In this document: positions 929-40,868 of the stretch, piece by piece
Position numbering within the stretch: position 1 is the stretch's first letter
How the letters are laid out: each line of letters begins with the position of its first letter
Source: an uncultured Sulfurovum sp.
GTDB lineage: Bacteria; Campylobacterota; Campylobacteria; Campylobacterales; Sulfurovaceae
Direction: 5' to 3'
DNA: 40,920 nt
Assembly: GCA_902727995.1 (NCBI GenBank)
Contig: CACVAZ010000033.1
Span: 1 to 40,920, forward strand
The notes under the pieces: generated by a model
What the model was told of the DNA's origin: nothing
Seen by the model: only the letters and a program-made list of their open reading frames with translations
Database searches by the model: none
Made by a program: the position numbers and the translations under genes

Positions 929-976
929 TGGTGATCACGATTGGACTTGAACCAACGACTTCTTCCATGTCAAGGA
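929..976. repeat. Left attachment site: 48-bp copy of the tRNA-Val 3' segment
   Basis: TGGTGATCACGATTGGACTTGAACCAACGACTTCTTCCATGTCAAGGA is identical to 40794-40841. Confidence 0.93.
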
Positions 977-1059: not shown

Positions 1060-2226
1060 TTAAACCTTTGCTACTTTTTTTATGAAGAGTACATCATTCA
1101 CTGGTGCTAAACTCTCTTGACCCTTTTGAGCTTGTATTTCTGTCATTGTTGGGAAGGTATAATGGTTGTCTGTTACATTGCTTCCTGGTCTATGACCCAT
1201 CGTTGATTGTCTTGCTTCTTCTTCCATAGCATAACTTTTTGCTACAGAAGCAAATGTTTTTCTTGTCATTCCAAGTGTGCCTTTTATTTTTAACTCTTTT
1301 AGCAGTGGTTGAAAATAATACTTTTCTAATGTAGAAGAACTTTTATAGAACGTTCCTTTGTTGCTTTCAAAAAGCCAGTGCTTAATGTTATTACTTTCTA
1401 TGTATTCTTTTAAAATATCAGCTGTATAATTTGAGAAATAAACAATCCGACTATGGTTTTTAGTAGTTGAAGTTACAGTAATAACATTTTGAGCAATGGC
1501 ACGTTGAATATAAATACACTTATGATTAAAATCAATGTCTGTCAGTTGAATACCTTTTAATTCTCCGACCCTTAATCCTGAATTGAAAGCTAGAAATAGC
1601 CAAGCTTTTATTTTTCCTGTTGAGTGTTTCATCATTTTTCTAGCTTGATCAACACTAAAGCCTTCTGTTTTTTTATGAACTATTTCAATAGTATCTGCTA
1701 ACTCTACTTTATTTGTAGATACAAGTTCATATTTTACGGCTCTGTCCATTATTTGACTTAAGTAATTTCTCCATTTTGAGATACTGTCAGAGGCATAACC
1801 TTGATGATCTTTCATACTTTGCCAATCTTCAACAAGATGTGCATTGATATCTTCAAGAGAAAAGTTTTTAAAGTATGGTAACAAATGTTTATAGAAAGAG
1901 ATTTCTGCACTTTTCTGTGATGATGTTCCTCTACCCTTTTTACTCCAGGTACCATCTGCTCTTTTCGTTTTGGCTCCTGATTTAATGGCTTCTATACCAA
2001 AATTTTCAAAGTCTGTTTTAATGCTCTTTGTTTTAGATGTACGTGCTATGAGTTCATCTCTTGCATTTGACTTATGTTTGATGTAGATTAGGTTCTTAGT
2101 GTTGGCTTCCATTTTAGTTGTAACACGTTTAAACGTACCCTCAATGGTTCCACAGACATAAATGATGTTGTATTCATTTACGAACCAACCTTTACCTTTT
2201 ATTCTTTTATTTTTCTTTGTTTGCAT
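1060..2226 (-). CDS. int: Phage integrase, tyrosine recombinase
   Basis: 388 aa; AFNSGLRVGELKGIQLTDIDF, TRKTFASVAK, MGHRPGSNVTDNHY boxes; adjacent to the att repeat. Confidence 0.93.
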   Translation of the reverse strand: MQTKKNKRIKGKGWFVNEYNIIYVCGTIEGTFKRVTTKMEANTKNLIYIKHKSNARDELIARTSKTKSIKTDFENFGIEAIKSGAKTKRADGTWSKKGRGTSSQKSAEISFYKHLLPYFKNFSLEDINAHLVEDWQSMKDHQGYASDSISKWRNYLSQIMDRAVKYELVSTNKVELADTIEIVHKKTEGFSVDQARKMMKHSTGKIKAWLFLAFNSGLRVGELKGIQLTDIDFNHKCIYIQRAIAQNVITVTSTTKNHSRIVYFSNYTADILKEYIESNNIKHWLFESNKGTFYKSSSTLEKYYFQPLLKELKIKGTLGMTRKTFASVAKSYAMEEEARQSTMGHRPGSNVTDNHYTFPTMTEIQAQKGQESLAPVNDVLFIKKVAKV

Positions 2227-2482
2227 AGTATCTCCTAATTTGGATAGCTACTGGTCTTGCAATAAGTATTTTACCACCCACGACCTTTTGGTAGTAGTCT
2301 TTTCCTTCTTTATAGTTTTTTGCTAAGTGAATTCTTATAGTACTGTTGTGTTTATTACAGTAAATTGCAAGTTGAGAGACTTCAAACTCTTCAGGAATTA
2401 ACGAAGTCAAAATTGACTCTAGTAGATTAAACTCTTTTACTCTTTCAAAAAATGAAAGATTGTTTTTTTTTATTGTTTCCAT
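2207..2482 (-). CDS. Small putative DNA-binding protein / excisionase candidate
   Basis: 91 aa, overlaps the int start and is co-directional; HTH-like FEVSQLAIYCNKHNSTIRIHLAKNYKEG...KILIARPVAIQIRRYY. Confidence 0.55.
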   Translation of the reverse strand: METIKKNNLSFFERVKEFNLLESILTSLIPEEFEVSQLAIYCNKHNSTIRIHLAKNYKEGKDYYQKVVGGKILIARPVAIQIRRYYANKEK

Positions 2483-2532
2483 ATCTTTACCCTTAATGTG
2501 TTATCATTACTACTGATAAGTATTTATATCAT

Positions 2533-2573
2533 AATACAATATTTTATTTGTAAAAGAAATAAAATATTGTATT
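2533..2573. promoter_or_regulatory. Perfect 17-bp inverted repeat, putative repressor operator
   Basis: AATACAATATTTTATTT-gtaaaag-AAATAAAATATTGTATT in the divergent intergenic region between 2482(-) and 2596(+). Confidence 0.65.
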
Positions 2574-2595
2574 TTTACTTCAAAAAGGTGCGATT

Positions 2596-3006
2596 ATGAA
2601 CAAAAACAACAGTAGATATTTAGATAAAGAAAAAAACAAGGAGATATTTAACCGTTTAAAATCGCATTTTAAAGTTAGGTTTGATAAAGAAGTTTTGGAA
2701 AAATGGGGAAAGAATACAAAAAGTATGAATAATTGGAGAAAATCAGGTATACCAGAAAATGAATTGTCTCTATTGGCTCTCAAAGAAAATGTAAATTATG
2801 ATTGGCTAATAGATGGAGTAGGAGAAAAAGATAAACTTGTAATTCCTACTCCTCATCTTGCTGGAATGGTTGAAGAAAATGGAACACAGTATAAGAAGAG
2901 AGACGCTCGTGAAGAGAATCTCTGTAAGGTTTTCAGTAAGGTTCCTAAAGATAAAAAAGAAGAAGCTTATCATAAAGCTATGGAAGTTATGTTCAAGTAT
3001 TATTGA
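2596..3006 (+). CDS. CI-like phage repressor with N-terminal HTH
   Basis: KNTKSMNNWRKSGIPENELSLLALKENVNYDWLIDGVGEK resembles the bacteriophage CI repressor HTH domain; divergent from the int operon. Confidence 0.75.
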   Translation: MNKNNSRYLDKEKNKEIFNRLKSHFKVRFDKEVLEKWGKNTKSMNNWRKSGIPENELSLLALKENVNYDWLIDGVGEKDKLVIPTPHLAGMVEENGTQYKKRDAREENLCKVFSKVPKDKKEEAYHKAMEVMFKYY

Positions 3007-3901: not shown

Positions 3902-3944
3902 GAGTTTAGAGGTTTTCCCGTCAAAGAAATTTACCTCTTTACTC
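3902..3944. terminator. Hairpin between two leftward gene blocks
   Basis: GAGTTTAGAGGT ... ACCTCTTTACTC (2 mismatches in 12). A second stem TGATACAA(3863-3870)/TTGTATCA(3883-3890) lies alongside. Confidence 0.35.
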
Positions 3945-4630
3945 TACTTTGTTAATTCTTCTTCGTACCACTCGGTAATCTCTTCTTCGTCATTGTCGTT
4001 ATGGTCTTGTCCATTGGTAACATTGTCGTCTACGTATCCAATTTGATCATCTTTCATTTTTTTTCCTTTCCAAATATAATCATTTTTGTACAAAATATCA
4101 TGAGCGTCTTGATAGCTCACTAAACTTTGAAATCTACTTTTGTCCAATGGTCTTACTACTCCTAAATCTGTTAAGATTCCAGACCAGTATTTAAACTGTT
4201 TTTCACTCACTTTGATTTTAAACTCATCTCTTTTTTTTAAAACCATATAGGGTAAACGAACGCCCCTGTAGAACTCTTCTACAATCGTAAAAGGAGAAAT
4301 GTACTTACCGTATGTTTTCTCATACTCTTTTGCAATTTTTTTCAATAACTCAATTTCACTTTTTTGAGTTTCAATTTTTTCTTTTAGTTGCTTAGAAGCC
4401 GATTCGGTTTTTTTAAATTGTTTGTTTTTATCAATCTCAACATCTCTCTCATCAATTATTTTTGCTAAAAGATAATTTAAAACATCGATTGAAACAATTC
4501 TTACTTCGTTGGGAAATATAAAGCTTTTAACTTCATACTCATCAATGTAACCATTTTTTGAAATTAGGTTTACAGCTCTTAAATCTCTTAGTTCACAAGC
4601 TTCAAGACTGTCTATGTTGTATGCACTCAT
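3944..4630 (-). CDS. Hypothetical coiled-coil protein
   Basis: 228 aa; central coiled coil; acidic tail NDNDEEEITEWYEEELTK; ATGA overlap with 4627. Confidence 0.7.
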   Translation of the reverse strand: MSAYNIDSLEACELRDLRAVNLISKNGYIDEYEVKSFIFPNEVRIVSIDVLNYLLAKIIDERDVEIDKNKQFKKTESASKQLKEKIETQKSEIELLKKIAKEYEKTYGKYISPFTIVEEFYRGVRLPYMVLKKRDEFKIKVSEKQFKYWSGILTDLGVVRPLDKSRFQSLVSYQDAHDILYKNDYIWKGKKMKDDQIGYVDDNVTNGQDHNDNDEEEITEWYEEELTK

Positions 4631-5970
4631 AGCATTTTTCCTATTTTTACGCGAACTGTGTCCAAGCCTTGCATTTTTTTTGCGACACCGTCTGCAAGAG
4701 CTAACATCTGGTGCGACTCTAGCTCTTGCATTTTTGACTCCGTAAGCAGTCTAGCGTTTTCTCTGTCTATTTCTGCAAGTCTTGATTTTTCAGTTAATTC
4801 ATGCTGTTGAGCCATGGTTTCTGACTCATAAGCAATTACTGCTGTCATGGTTTTGTTTTGCTCTAAATCTGAACCTATCTTGGTAGCTTTCAGTCTTGTG
4901 TTTCGCTCTTTTAGGGCGATATTGGAGCTAAAAAGTGTGTTGGTAACATTCTCTTTGTAAGCTTCTTCTTGACTAATGCTGTTTAAAATGGTTCTTTGAC
5001 TTAAAATACTTGCCATGGTTCCACCAAGCTCTAAAAATACAAATAATATTCCAAGCATAACGGTAATTCCCATAGTTGAAGAGGTAGAGTTTCCTGCTAT
5101 TTTTTTCAGTCTTTCTCGCTCTTTTTCTATCTCATCTTCTTTTTTTGAAATTTCATCTTCATAGAGTTGCTTTGATGTTTTTGCACTTGCAGTACTTAGC
5201 ATGTCTTTTTCGGCTTGTGCTATTTCTTGATTCTTTTTATCAATACGTTTATTGATAGAGTCAATCATTGTTTTTGCATCTTCTCGCTTTTTGACATACA
5301 TGGAAGTAGAATTGGTTTTTAGGTCTTTTGTTATTTCTTCTCTTATTTTTTCAATTTCCGAATTTAACCTGGTTATTTTACTTTGGTAAATACCTGTTGT
5401 TACGGCTGAGTCCTTAGAGTTGTCTTTGTCTTTTTTTAGACGCTCTATTTGCTTTAGCCTCGTATCAACATAGGCGTTATCATCAACATTTTTTGTTTTT
5501 TGTATGATGATATAATCAGGTAGATTCCATGCTGATATGAGTACCATTATGACTGCATAGGTTTTTATGGAAAGAAGAATGGTTTTATAAGCCACCCTGT
5601 CTTCTCCACCTAATTCTAATTCACCTTTTGTTGCAAAGACATGTTCAGAATTCGTAGACCATAGCTCAAAGAAACCTCCAACCATTAGCCCAATAACAAA
5701 TGCAATATAAAATGTTAGTGACCAAAAGACATCTTCTGTAATCAATAAAATTGAAATGGTAAGACCTAACGCAGAGTTCATGACTGAAATAGGCTTCATA
5801 AACTTTGAAGAGATTGTTAAGAATTTAACTCTGCTGTTTTGTGCTAAAACTCCTGTCATTTCTCTTCGAGATTTTCCAAGACTGTCTCTAGCCTGTGATT
5901 CAGTTGTACCGTCTACTATTTTGTAGATATCTGCTTCAGATTGTATATCTTTCACATCATTTTGAGACAT
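4627..5970 (-). CDS. Hypothetical membrane protein with long coiled coil
   Basis: 447 aa; hydrophobic segments at SAVNS..ALGLTISILLI, FYIAFVIGLMVGGFF, YAVIMVLISAWNL and MLGILFVFLELGGTMASIL; long charged coiled coil between and after. Confidence 0.75.
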   Translation of the reverse strand: MSQNDVKDIQSEADIYKIVDGTTESQARDSLGKSRREMTGVLAQNSRVKFLTISSKFMKPISVMNSALGLTISILLITEDVFWSLTFYIAFVIGLMVGGFFELWSTNSEHVFATKGELELGGEDRVAYKTILLSIKTYAVIMVLISAWNLPDYIIIQKTKNVDDNAYVDTRLKQIERLKKDKDNSKDSAVTTGIYQSKITRLNSEIEKIREEITKDLKTNSTSMYVKKREDAKTMIDSINKRIDKKNQEIAQAEKDMLSTASAKTSKQLYEDEISKKEDEIEKERERLKKIAGNSTSSTMGITVMLGILFVFLELGGTMASILSQRTILNSISQEEAYKENVTNTLFSSNIALKERNTRLKATKIGSDLEQNKTMTAVIAYESETMAQQHELTEKSRLAEIDRENARLLTESKMQELESHQMLALADGVAKKMQGLDTVRVKIGKML

Positions 5971-6007
5971 ATTTAATCCTTGGTTTTTTAAAGGTTAATA
6001 AAACAGG

Positions 6008-6571
6008 TTAAGCTACTTTTGAAACAAGTCCCTCAAATGCTTGAATTGCATTTGAATCTAAGTCTTTTACCTTGGTTTTTGATGTGTTGATTACTCCAAT
6101 CTTATAAAGATTAGGAATGGACTCAATCCCCTTATGAAATAAGAAGTCAGCGTATTCTGCAATACTCGTATTTGCTGGGGTAAAGTTACTCTTTTTAGAA
6201 TTTGGGTACTCTAAAGTATGCCACGTTTCAAATGGAGCAACTAGCTTTGCTTTTTTTGTGTCATTGTCAAGGGTAATCCCTTCAAATGAAAAGTGAGGTT
6301 TTAGAATCTCTAGCATTTCTTTAGTATAAGAGCTTAAAGGGTTTGCTTTATAGTTTTGCATTTTGTTAATGGGTTCCATTAACTCTGATTTCCCTATTGT
6401 GTCAAGCAACTCAACAAGGTTGTTGTTTTTAATTTGCTTCATACCCATTTTTTTAGGAGTATCTTTTCTGAACTTTTCGTTGTATTGTGCTACAACGGCA
6501 TATTGAACCAATGCTCTTTCATTGTCACTCATCTCTTTTTTCTTTTGTTGTTGGTCTTTTGCGTCTGCCAT
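6008..6571 (-). CDS. Hypothetical protein
   Basis: 187 aa, first gene of the 6571-to-3944 leftward cassette; paired palindromes immediately upstream. Confidence 0.7.
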   Translation of the reverse strand: MADAKDQQQKKKEMSDNERALVQYAVVAQYNEKFRKDTPKKMGMKQIKNNNLVELLDTIGKSELMEPINKMQNYKANPLSSYTKEMLEILKPHFSFEGITLDNDTKKAKLVAPFETWHTLEYPNSKKSNFTPANTSIAEYADFLFHKGIESIPNLYKIGVINTSKTKVKDLDSNAIQAFEGLVSKVA

Positions 6572-8019: not shown

Positions 8020-8892
8020 TTAAAATTGTTGTGTTGAAATTAATGTTTTAATTGTACGAGCAGTTACACCATGTTTTTCCATCATGTCGATTGCATCAAA
8101 AACCATATCTACATAAACAACAGCGTTTGTCTCTTGTCCTTTATATGTCTCTGGGGCTTTTGCTTTTTCTGTAGGTTGATTGTCGTTTACCATGCTTTGT
8201 AGTGCTGTTGGGTTTTGTACGGTTGGTAGTTCGCTTAATGGTCGGTTCATGATGAGTTGCAATTCTGCTCCATAGCTGTGAAGTTGAAGTTGTTCTAAAA
8301 CTTGACCATAAGTAAAGTTTGTAAGTATCTTCCCTTCTTCGTCTAAATGTAAGAATTTTTCTTCTAAAAGTTTTTCTATAACCAAAGTTATAATTTCATT
8401 TTTTGTAAGTGCTGTTCTACGGAAAAGAGATTCATTGTATTTAGTGGTGAGTTCTTCAGCAGATGAAAGTTTTAGGTTTGGTATGGCTTTTGTTATCATG
8501 GCTCTACCAAAAAGGTAAAAGATTACTAGGGTAAAGTCATACTTTGTAAATGTTGATGATGCTGGGGGAAATGATGTTGATGTTTGTTGAGCTTCTCTTA
8601 ATTTGAAAAAAGCTTTAACTAGGTTCTTTTTAAACTCTACTACTTGTTTTGAGTTTTTGAGCAGGGTCATTAGGAATGTGGCTTGTTGCTCATTGAGCAT
8701 TGTCACAGTTTTAGACTGCTTACCAACCTGCGATTTCAAATCGTAGGTTAAAACTTTTCCAAACTCCTCAATATCTTTTCTATAAGTTCTTAGAAGATTA
8801 TTAATACTTGTGTATTTATTATCAGTACTATTAGCGATGACTAACGCAGATACTCTCGGTTCATTGTTGATGATTTCTAAAAGGTGGGTCAT
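8020..8892 (-). CDS. rha: Rha-family phage regulatory protein
   Basis: EPRVSALVIANSTDNKYTSINNLLRTYRKDIEEFGKV...KQSKTVTMLNEQQATFLMTLLKNSKQVVEFKKNLVKAFFKLREAQQ is Rha-like. Start set at MTHLLEI with upstream AGAGAGG, rather than the 8922 ORF start. Confidence 0.85.
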   Translation of the reverse strand: MTHLLEIINNEPRVSALVIANSTDNKYTSINNLLRTYRKDIEEFGKVLTYDLKSQVGKQSKTVTMLNEQQATFLMTLLKNSKQVVEFKKNLVKAFFKLREAQQTSTSFPPASSTFTKYDFTLVIFYLFGRAMITKAIPNLKLSSAEELTTKYNESLFRRTALTKNEIITLVIEKLLEEKFLHLDEEGKILTNFTYGQVLEQLQLHSYGAELQLIMNRPLSELPTVQNPTALQSMVNDNQPTEKAKAPETYKGQETNAVVYVDMVFDAIDMMEKHGVTARTIKTLISTQQF

Positions 8893-8893
8893 A

Positions 8894-9397
8894 CTAAACC
8901 TCTCTTTCAGAAAGAGGTACATACTCTTTAGAAGTTACACTAACATTACTTTCTGCTGGCATAATCAGCTGTTGTCCATATTGAGGATGGTTAAATCTAG
9001 CAAATGTCTGTTCAAAGCTATCTAAAGACCCTTTTATATTTAGTATGTCGAGTAAAGGTTGAAGAGAATATTTGTTGATGGATTCAAGTGTTGCACCAAA
9101 AAAGAGCAAGACAGGACATTCTTCATCTATGTCTTGACTTTCTGCATGTTCAGCTATGAGATATTTGGTTTTTTTAGAGAGATTGTAAACAATACCCTCT
9201 TGGGTGGTAAGTGTGTCATTTCTAAAGTCTACATCTGAAACTTTAACGGCTATTAATTCACTGGCACTCATGCCTGTGTTAAATGCTAAGTATGACCAAC
9301 ATTTCATAAGACCTGTTGATTTACTCATAATAAGTTTTGACTCTTCATCTGAAAAGCCTTGATATGTTGGGGATTTTACTAGGGTAAGGTTTTGCAT
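8894..9397 (-). CDS. Truncated tyrosine-recombinase catalytic-domain homologue lacking catalytic residues
   Basis: STGLMKCWSYLAFNTGMSASELIAVKVSDVDF aligns with the prophage integrase STGKIKAWLFLAFNSGLRVGELKGIQLTDIDF; SLQPLLDILNIKGSLDSFEQTFA aligns with YFQPLLKELKIKGTLGMTRKTFA. Active-site R and H boxes are absent. Confidence 0.75.
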   Translation of the reverse strand: MQNLTLVKSPTYQGFSDEESKLIMSKSTGLMKCWSYLAFNTGMSASELIAVKVSDVDFRNDTLTTQEGIVYNLSKKTKYLIAEHAESQDIDEECPVLLFFGATLESINKYSLQPLLDILNIKGSLDSFEQTFARFNHPQYGQQLIMPAESNVSVTSKEYVPLSEREV

Positions 9398-9441
9398 TTT
9401 TTCTCCTAAAACTGTTTTTGTTCTAGGAGTATAATTAATTT

Positions 9442-9507
9442 AAAGTAACTATTTACTTAAAAAGGTTACTTTAACTATAAATTTAATGAATTAAGGTTAC
9501 TATTTAT
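9442..9507. promoter_or_regulatory. Repeated GTTACT / AGTAAC motifs, putative operator cluster
   Basis: AAAGTAAC (9442-9449) and GTTACTTT (9465-9472) form an inverted repeat; a further AAGGTTACTATTTATTT overlaps the 3' end of the HTH gene. Confidence 0.45.
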
Positions 9508-9736
9508 TTGAAATCTCTTTAATGAACCTCTTGAATTGGTCAAATTCCTTAAATTCATTTTCTTTTTCTTTATATGCAATATACCACTCTAATGCTTTTC
9601 TTAAAATTTCTCCTATCTCTCCTGTAGACGCTGATTTTTTCAAGGTACTTTCTTTTGCACCTGTAATTTCGGCTAACTCTCTATAGGACAAATTGTAATC
9701 CTTACATACTCGCTTAACTAAGTTTAATTCAGTCAA
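9500..9736 (-). CDS. Small HTH DNA-binding protein
   Basis: 78 aa; LVKRVCKDYNLSYRELAEITGAKESTLKKSASTGE is an XRE/HTH-like pattern. Confidence 0.65.
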   Translation of the reverse strand: MTELNLVKRVCKDYNLSYRELAEITGAKESTLKKSASTGEIGEILRKALEWYIAYKEKENEFKEFDQFKRFIKEISNK

Positions 9737-10638: not shown

Positions 10639-10962
10639 TTAAGTTCCCCTTTTTTCACCATACTGAAATGAATGACTAATCAAGTCAATACACTCATCAA
10701 ACTTACTTCTTTCTATCTCATGATAATCCACAACTTTAAAATCAATTCTAATAGCTTTATAGAGCTGTCTACTACAGTGTTCAAAATATTCATCATCAAA
10801 AGTACCGTTGTTCTGATGCTTAGAAAAAGCTACTGCCACCTTATTAACAGTATCTCTAATTATTTTAGCCTGATGTCTTGTCAATAGTTCTAACTCATCC
10901 TTAAAGTACCCAGATGAGTGTTCCACTCCATGTATCCACGATGCATCTATTTTTTCCAACAT
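10639..10962 (-). CDS. Hypothetical protein
   Basis: 107 aa; immediately upstream of and co-directional with 9780-10637. Confidence 0.6.
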   Translation of the reverse strand: MLEKIDASWIHGVEHSSGYFKDELELLTRHQAKIIRDTVNKVAVAFSKHQNNGTFDDEYFEHCSRQLYKAIRIDFKVVDYHEIERSKFDECIDLISHSFQYGEKRGT

Positions 10963-10965
10963 CTC

Positions 10966-11340
10966 TTAACCCTTTCTTCTCAATGTATTTATCATGCCCA
11001 TTATAAGAACATCATTTCTTTCAAGAGCCTCTAGCTGAGTTATGCTCTTTTGCTGACTGCTCTCTATGCGTTTAACTGCTTCTAGTAGCTTTACAGAGTC
11101 CATATCATGATAAAGCTTCTGAACAGACTCTTCAATCTCTGTATGCTCTTCATGTACTATTCTACCCTTTTCTATAGGTTTAGATGGATTGAGTTTTCTC
11201 TCTAGCTCACCACCAATAAATATATCGTTGTTTGCAAGATTTATCAAACCTGTTAACATCTTCTTTTGGTTGCTTTCTATGAGTTTCATAACCTCCTGTA
11301 GTTCTGAGACATCAATCATGCTCAACTCTTTAAAAATCAT
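10966..11340 (-). CDS. Hypothetical protein
   Basis: 124 aa; internally repetitive (LQEVMKLIESNQKKMLTGLINLANNDIFIGG / LLEAVKRIESSQQKSITQLEALERNDVLIMG). Confidence 0.6.
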   Translation of the reverse strand: MIFKELSMIDVSELQEVMKLIESNQKKMLTGLINLANNDIFIGGELERKLNPSKPIEKGRIVHEEHTEIEESVQKLYHDMDSVKLLEAVKRIESSQQKSITQLEALERNDVLIMGMINTLRRKG

Positions 11341-20883: not shown

Positions 20884-21663
20884 ATGTCTGATATAAAACT
20901 TACAGACTTTATGAAAGATGTCAATACTGCTTCTATAGAGTTAAATAAAAACGTATTAATCACTACGGCAAAAGAGTCTCTAGTAGATGGAATAAGTAAC
21001 AGTGAAATAAGTGACGAAGAAAAAAATACGCTTCTTTCTCAATACACGCAACAAATATCATTAGGTCTTGTAGCACAAGCTGTTGAAATAGTTAAAAACC
21101 TACCTCTTTTAAATGCAGATATAAATCTTAAAAGTTCTCAAAAAACTTTAATAGATGAGCAAAAGAAAACTGAAACCCAGCAAACGCAAAATGTAATAGC
21201 AGAGAAAGAGTTAAGGCAGTCTCAAAAGGCTAAGAATACGGCAGATGTAGGACTTGTAAATGAGCAAAAAGGTTTGGTAGTTAATCAAAAAGCTACTGAA
21301 TTAAAAGTTGCTTTAACCGAAGTTGCAAAAGCTTCAAATCTAGGTGCAGATTCATCAGTAAAAAGTTCTCAAAAAACTTTAATAGATGAGCAAAAGAAAA
21401 CTGAAACACAGCAAACGCAAAATGTAATAGCAGAGAAAGAGTTAAGGCAGTCTCAAAAGGCTAAGAATACGGCAGATATAAATATGCTGGTTAAGCAAGA
21501 AGGACTGCTTTCTGTTCAAATCGGAGGCTTTAAAACGGATGCCAATTATAAGATAATGAAGTCACTGACTGAAATGGCTGGAATGTTGGCTCAAAATGAT
21601 ATATCAACTGAGACTTGGATGGTTGATGGCATAAAAGAAGCCATATCGACTATGAAAAGCTAA
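20884..21663 (+). CDS. Phage repeat protein, coiled coil
   Basis: Two copies of KSSQKTLIDEQKKTETQQTQNVIAEKELRQSQKAKNTAD. Confidence 0.65.
   Translation: MSDIKLTDFMKDVNTASIELNKNVLITTAKESLVDGISNSEISDEEKNTLLSQYTQQISLGLVAQAVEIVKNLPLLNADINLKSSQKTLIDEQKKTETQQTQNVIAEKELRQSQKAKNTADVGLVNEQKGLVVNQKATELKVALTEVAKASNLGADSSVKSSQKTLIDEQKKTETQQTQNVIAEKELRQSQKAKNTADINMLVKQEGLLSVQIGGFKTDANYKIMKSLTEMAGMLAQNDISTETWMVDGIKEAISTMKS
21130..21477 (+). repeat. 117-bp direct repeat (2 copies, offset 231 bp)
   Basis: 21130-21246 and 21361-21477, identical except one noticed mismatch (CCCAG/CACAG). Confidence 0.85.
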
Positions 21664-31188: not shown

Positions 31189-31884
31189 ATGCAAATAAAT
31201 GACCAATTTAACCCCAATTTAGCCTACATGCTTCAACCTAGTAAAGAAAATGCTTTTACCATTTTAGGTAAAGGGGTTTCTGACTACATGAGCATGAGAG
31301 ACAATCAAGAACTAAAAGAAATTAATTTAGAGTCAATTCGTGAGAAGATGAACAGTTCTAAAAAAGCAGATACTCGTGCTGATAAAAAGCTAGATCTTGA
31401 CACGGAAATAGGAGAGGCAAACATTGATAACCTGAACTTTAACCAAGGCATGAAAAATAAAGAGTTTGGTCTTAATGAAAAAAGTACCAATGCAAACATT
31501 GATAACCTGAACTTTAACCAAGGCATGAAAAATAAAGAGTTTGGTCTTAGTGAAAAACGTACCAATGCAAACATTGATAACCTGAACTTTAACCAAGGCA
31601 TGAAAAATAAAGAGTTTGGTCTTAGTGAAAAACGTACCAATGCGAATATAAACTATAACAATAAAAGTTTAGGAATACAGCAACAAAAAGTTGATATTGC
31701 TAGAAGCAAAAAAAAGTCTAAAAAAACTATCATTGCTCCTGTCTCAGATTTGAGAGAACTCAACAAAAATATTTCTAAACGAAATAAACCAAAAGAGCAA
31801 GAGAAAACCATTGTACGTACAGGGATGAAAGATGGTAAAAAAGTGATTCAATACAGTGATGGGAGCATAGAGTATGGGAACTAA
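31189..31884 (+). CDS. Tandem-repeat protein, putative virion internal protein
   Basis: Three 25-aa repeats ANIDNLNFNQGMKNKEFGL(N/S)EK(S/R)TN. Confidence 0.65.
   Translation: MQINDQFNPNLAYMLQPSKENAFTILGKGVSDYMSMRDNQELKEINLESIREKMNSSKKADTRADKKLDLDTEIGEANIDNLNFNQGMKNKEFGLNEKSTNANIDNLNFNQGMKNKEFGLSEKRTNANIDNLNFNQGMKNKEFGLSEKRTNANINYNNKSLGIQQQKVDIARSKKKSKKTIIAPVSDLRELNKNISKRNKPKEQEKTIVRTGMKDGKKVIQYSDGSIEYGN
31417..31641 (+). repeat. 75-bp tandem repeat, 3 copies
   Basis: Units start at 31417, 31492 and 31567; copies 2 and 3 appear identical. Confidence 0.9.
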
Positions 31885-40793: not shown

Positions 40794-40841
40794 TGGTGAT
40801 CACGATTGGACTTGAACCAACGACTTCTTCCATGTCAAGGA
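40794..40841. repeat. Right attachment site within the tRNA-Val gene
   Basis: 48 bp identical to 929-976. Confidence 0.93.
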
Positions 40842-40868
40842 AGTACTCTACCACTGAGTTACGCGATC
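40794..40868 (-). tRNA. tRNA-Val(GAC)
   Basis: Reverse complement GATCGCGTAACTCAGTGGTAGAGTACTTCCTTGACATGGAAGAAGTCGTTGGTTCAAGTCCAATCGTGATCACCA folds as a cloverleaf; anticodon stem CTTCC/GGAAG, loop TTGACAT, encoded CCA. Confidence 0.93.

Follow-up and report, generated by a model that had tools for sequence, protein, structure and literature searches.

An extra gene (8894..9397, minus strand) in a conserved prophage regulatory cassette encodes a 167-aa acidic protein (pI 4.7), here called INT-like, a catalytically dead paralogue of the prophage's own tyrosine recombinase integrase (1060..2226, minus strand), its nearest relative. The best overall explanation, to which we assign a probability of about 0.4, is that INT-like was copied from the prophage's own integrase lineage and, as an acidic protomer mimic that does not cut, binds either the prophage's integrase or that of a competitor.

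The window (the whole stretch of DNA that was analysed, a single MAG contig of 40,920 nt from a Sulfurovaceae bacterium) holds a complete prophage at about 929-40841, with both ends on one contig. An identical 48-bp repeat in tRNA-Val(gac) provides the att cores, attL at 929..976 and attR at 40794..40841, the latter within the tRNA-Val(gac) gene at 40794..40868 (minus strand). Besides the integrase, the prophage encodes a 91-aa candidate excisionase/RDF (2207..2482, minus strand), a repressor-like gene, replication genes, terminase, capsid, endolysin, portal and primase. The 91-aa gene sits just upstream of the same integrase type in relatives, and its position beside int fits that of an excisionase/RDF. 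The integrase itself is non-canonical: its box II reads GMTRKTFA, in which Gly occupies the position of the first His and Lys that of the next His, unlike YATRHTF in its relatives. In the related prophages L079 and L089, the module of repressor, 91-aa gene and integrase (1060-3006 in the window) is reversed in orientation with respect to the portal gene. Three genes between this module and Rha (3944-6571) have no clear family match. Two fragments directly outside attL (92-825) resemble, by eye, an IS-type transposase, and the genes at 20884-21663 and 31189-31884 encode proteins with near-identical internal repeats (QKTLIDEQKKTETQQTQNVIAEKELRQSQKAKNTAD and NIDNLNFNQGMKNKEFGLSEKRTNA).

INT-like and its relation to the integrase

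The INT-like frame opens with an ATG at 9397, five bases after the Shine-Dalgarno (SD) sequence TAGGAG, and closes with a TAG stop codon (8896-8894). A reading made from the sequence alone had aligned the protein by eye with the catalytic half of the prophage integrase and had noted that the N-terminal arm-binding and core-binding regions are missing, and both observations hold. BLASTP matched the two proteins with an E-value of 3e-20 and 31% identity across residues 13-133, and their local alignment score is 175, where 1000 shuffles averaged 34 and reached at most 65. The N-terminal parts are absent from the ORF, and tblastn of the upstream region detected no remnant of them. General profiles match INT-like weakly (PF00589, E = 0.004; PHROG 216, E = 1e-4), and the curated PF00589 profile gives 17.3 bits, under its cut-off of 27.1. 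Significant homology stops near residue 135. The part homologous to the catalytic domain (residues 12-135; 8993..9364, minus strand) lacks some 16 residues in the beta2-beta3 hairpin region and is followed by a diverged tail (residues 136-167; 8897..8992, minus strand), whose roughly 32 residues align at chance level (p = 0.31).

The catalytic set R...HxxR...GH...Y has largely been dismantled. As had been claimed, the box I and box II arginines are replaced, by Ser (R44S) and Glu (R129E), respectively, and the alignment places Ala-Glu at the GH positions (G148, H149). The claimed replacement of the MGHRPG histidine stands insofar as no GH motif occurs anywhere in the tail, but which residue stands opposite the lost His, like the tentative assignment of Y159 as the catalytic Tyr, is alignment-dependent because the tail is unalignable and its modelled pLDDT is below 50; Y159 falls in the conserved Tyr column only in the uncertain tail alignment. 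While the catalytic columns are lost, structural residues are kept (G29, F39, G42, E47, D55, F99 and L115-L116), and among columns at least 90% conserved in other integrases INT-like retains G29, G42, E47, D55 and F99, with L51 changed to Val. Over the aligned columns its net charge is -9 and its pI 4.65, the lowest among 48 catalytic domains (the next is -1), against +10 and 9.6 for the catalytic domain of the window integrase. INT-like is acidic at seven positions where fewer than 10% of integrases are, and these include R67E, Y126D, R129E, H149E and H158E, mostly in the active-site pocket.

AlphaFold modelled most of residues 12-136 of INT-like with a pLDDT of around 90, from an input alignment of the window integrase and integrases of the compared loci, which leans the model towards the integrase fold. 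A Foldseek search with this model returned XerA, XerD, Tn1549 Int and P2 Int, with a probability of 1.00 for XerA and P2 Int and TM-scores of 0.5-0.6. As modelled, INT-like folds as a tyrosine-recombinase catalytic core, which is the fold that had been presumed from its sequence.

The HTH-Rha cassette and the region upstream of INT-like

The cassette that hosts INT-like opens with a small HTH regulator gene (9500..9736, minus strand; PHROG 4779) and continues with the gene for a Rha antirepressor-type regulator (8020..8892, minus strand; PF09669). A single base separates the INT-like stop codon from the Rha ATG at 8892, in agreement with the earlier placement of the gene in the regulatory cluster, adjoining the Rha start. 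The HTH-Rha pair recurs at ten other distinct loci, six of them in genome G075, and these loci include Nitratiruptor phage NrS-2 and an Aliarcobacter prophage that also carries the 91-aa gene and the same integrase type further on. From the HTH stop codon to the open Rha frame there are 31-129 nt at the ten other loci and 566 nt in the window, which is the only one of the compared HTH-Rha loci with a gene between the two. Similarly, in G346 and IMG/VR 3300026518_000041, which have related portal and integrase genes, the HTH gene is followed by an antirepressor-like gene without INT-like. This comparison shows that INT-like is an addition to a conserved cassette, inserted after the control region and ahead of Rha.

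Most relatives (L096, L058, L086, L084, L089 and L053) feature, by eye, a CTTGAC...TATAAT-like promoter in the HTH-Rha gap. This is absent from the window gap ahead of INT-like, where operator-like repeats are found instead: an inverted repeat, TTAAAGTAACTATTT/AAAAGGTTACTTTAA (9440..9474), and beside it a further half site, AAGGTTACT (9493-9501). Closer to the gene, a predicted RNA hairpin with 10-bp arms (CTCCTAGAAC-7-GTTTTAGGAG; 9403..9429, minus strand; -12.8 kcal/mol) sequesters the INT-like SD. It is more stable than expected from shuffled sequence (z = -5.5, 0/200 shuffles), and the INT-like ribosome site is the least accessible among 47 gene starts; there was no Rfam or PADLOC match. 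The same element, with its 10-bp arms and 7-bp spacer, was rejected as a recombinase core site, as the att cores at 929 and 40794 are unrelated to it in sequence and palindromes of this type are only slightly commoner than in shuffles (19 versus 5-14).

A candidate -10 box, TATACT (9428..9433, minus strand), overlaps the 5' edge of the hairpin. Transcription from this box would start inside the stem and lose the 5' arm, giving a transcript that is open at the INT-like SD, whereas read-through transcripts from the HTH gene would close it. INT-like would then be made chiefly from the cassette's own promoter, and on those transcripts together with Rha. The protection of transposase genes against read-through provides an analogue for a hairpin that occludes an SD on read-through transcripts.

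The chief rival to an integrase target is a target within the Rha switch. INT-like may have left recombination entirely and now operate there through contact with either Rha or the HTH protein, or its frame may mainly couple the translation of Rha. Its acidity and its location exactly inside the cassette, one base from Rha, are consistent with such a partner, and the Rha SD also has poor accessibility (0.24). However, the hairpin over the Rha start is not above shuffled sequence (z = -0.55) and was rejected as a coupling device, while a coupling leader alone would need no recombinase core under protein-level constraint. We therefore regard this account as doubtful.

Origin and maintenance of INT-like

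A tree constructed from the catalytic-domain columns present in INT-like placed it as the sister of the window integrase (99/94), which bears out the proposed paralogy, and grouped both with the integrases of two related-type prophages (95/88). A first tree from all columns, with 47% of the INT-like columns filled, had placed it elsewhere with weak support (79/66). The window integrase is clearly the closest match to the C-terminal half of INT-like; for the N-terminal half it is roughly level with a G329 integrase, and an origin from the G329 lineage would be compatible with the AU test (p = 0.10). The INT-like branch is 3.7-fold longer than that of the window integrase (2.27 versus 0.62). No second copy was found by direct search of IMG/VR, GTDB contigs and INPHARED, and no homologue among 399 order-level and 397 class-level genomes, two sets that overlap; these searches returned full integrases or catalytically intact remnants only. 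In one case, the G194 integrase has two truncated C-terminal copies whose catalytic residues are intact (8585-9169 and 10755-11057 of locus L033); they lie approximately 15-20 kb from the full integrase gene and are recent remnants.

INT-like shows neither neutral evolution nor damage to its frame. Its codon score of 0.286 is inside the 0.25-0.49 range of the phage genes and all other frames score negatively, while its identity to the integrase gene at codon positions 1, 2 and 3 is 49, 69 and 40%, where chance gives 28, 28 and 32%. Simulated neutral decay from the integrase left about nine stops in the frame once identity had fallen to 31%, and at any mutation load, indels not counted, at most 0.1% of runs combined a frame that was still open with the loss of R, R and H. 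Together, the open frame, the codon-position pattern and the simulations indicate that, for most of its existence, selection acted on INT-like at the protein level, in support of the earlier view that its intact frame is not a case of simple decay. INT-like is thus best regarded as a real gene that selection has maintained as a protein, although that selection could have ended recently.

The competing idea, that INT-like is a decaying remnant of a truncated second integrase that is still unbroken, draws on its long branch, its singleton status in the searched collections, the deleted beta2-beta3 hairpin and unalignable tail, and the fact that truncated integrase remnants are common. It is unlikely given the simulated probability of no more than 0.001, the conserved second codon position and a good SD with a specific hairpin, and because the true remnants that were observed, two recent integrase truncations in other genomes (G194 and G311), retain their catalytic residues.

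Proposed function and comparison with known systems

The best reading of a core that selection kept, minus catalysis, the DNA-gripping domain and positive charge, is that of a protein-contact module, and INT-like most likely acts by protein contact rather than by cutting DNA. Tyrosine recombinases usually assemble through contacts between catalytic domains, including the exchange of C-terminal helices between protomers (PMC3646895), which makes the parent integrase the simplest target. A copy from the prophage's integrase lineage was trimmed to the core of its catalytic domain and lost catalysis and positive charge. In the proposed mechanism, its product would bind integrase and disrupt the assembly of the enzyme at att at the time when Rha sets the lysogeny switch, such that integration and excision would be tied to the antirepressor decision. 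The sequence-only reading had listed such a role, an integrase-binding modulator or a dominant-negative control, among its options. Several points weigh against an integrase target: the C-terminal helices of protomer exchange are not recognisable in INT-like, its acidity could equally serve to bind a host protein or the cassette's own HTH and Rha products, and a singleton in the searched collections offers no dN/dS and no co-evolution with the integrase or Rha.

The fullest form of this proposal, in which an integrase copy serves as an acidic, non-DNA-binding recombination inhibitor in a coupled antirepressor operon and one transcript sets both switches, is tentative and rather unlikely. If true, the gene-expression switch and DNA integration and excision would be set by a single transcript, and INT-like would be a small protein that inhibits a tyrosine recombinase. 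Phage integrases are known to be controlled by directionality factors, promoters and proteolysis; a duplicated, disarmed integrase domain, if it is a regulator, would be a further route of control. The present extent is one gene in one prophage, and the value of the proposal lies in the test that it invites.

The same protein logic as in the integrase-binding reading could make INT-like a superinfection tool, an acidic decoy that keeps related phages from integrating at this tRNA-Val, and lineage-specific inserted genes are typical of accessory phage genes; PADLOC, however, gave no match, and we consider this role quite improbable. DNA binding is the least likely mode of action: the sequence-only reading had suggested a DNA-binding regulator, and repeats do lie just upstream of the gene and the recombinase-fold proteins Tfp and GinC are thought to bind DNA (PMC10214605), but the change in charge from +10 to -9 with acidic residues in the phosphate pocket, the lack of a core-binding domain and an adjacent HTH protein that is the natural binder of the 9440-9501 repeats make action on these repeats or on att very improbable.

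Compared with active tyrosine recombinases (PF00589; P2 Int, XerA), INT-like shares the fold of residues 12-135 and the structural residues, but it is acidic, has lost the hairpin and is without the box I and II arginines, the GH motif and the core- and arm-binding domains. Unlike an excisionase/RDF, which is a small basic DNA-binding protein encoded next to int, INT-like is acidic and encoded 6.7 kb away. IntC of the split suicidal archaeal integrases is also a free-standing C-terminal integrase part, but it includes the catalytic domain and is generated by the integration event (PMC8371274), whereas INT-like coexists with a complete integrase gene.

Closer parallels are found among proteins that have lost catalysis. 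Tfp of SE elements and GinC of GInts have a tyrosine-recombinase fold without the RHRY motif and are encoded in a mobile-element operon for which translational coupling has been suggested, all of which resembles INT-like (PMC10214605). They are large proteins with a central recombinase fold, such that anything under 550 aa is treated as truncated, and are located in an intA-tfp-intB recombination operon, beside intA/intB and srap/ginD (PMC10214605); INT-like, in contrast, is a 167-aa acidic protein encoded in an antirepressor cassette, with HTH and Rha as its neighbours and the integrase gene 6.7 kb away. DUF3504/Crypton-derived proteins likewise contain a recombinase core that has lost most catalytic residues, for which protein-protein or DNA contacts have been suggested, but this core was domesticated in eukaryotes and is fused to other domains (PMC3212892). 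The DUF3504 profile did not match INT-like, and a Pfam scan to E = 1 gave the weak PF00589 match only. The earlier statement that no described family has such a role therefore needs qualification: an isolated, acidic, dead recombinase-fold protein in a phage antirepressor operon was not found described in the literature, but dead recombinase-fold proteins as such are known. Tfp/GinC and DUF3504 are precedents for these, and neither fits INT-like as a family.
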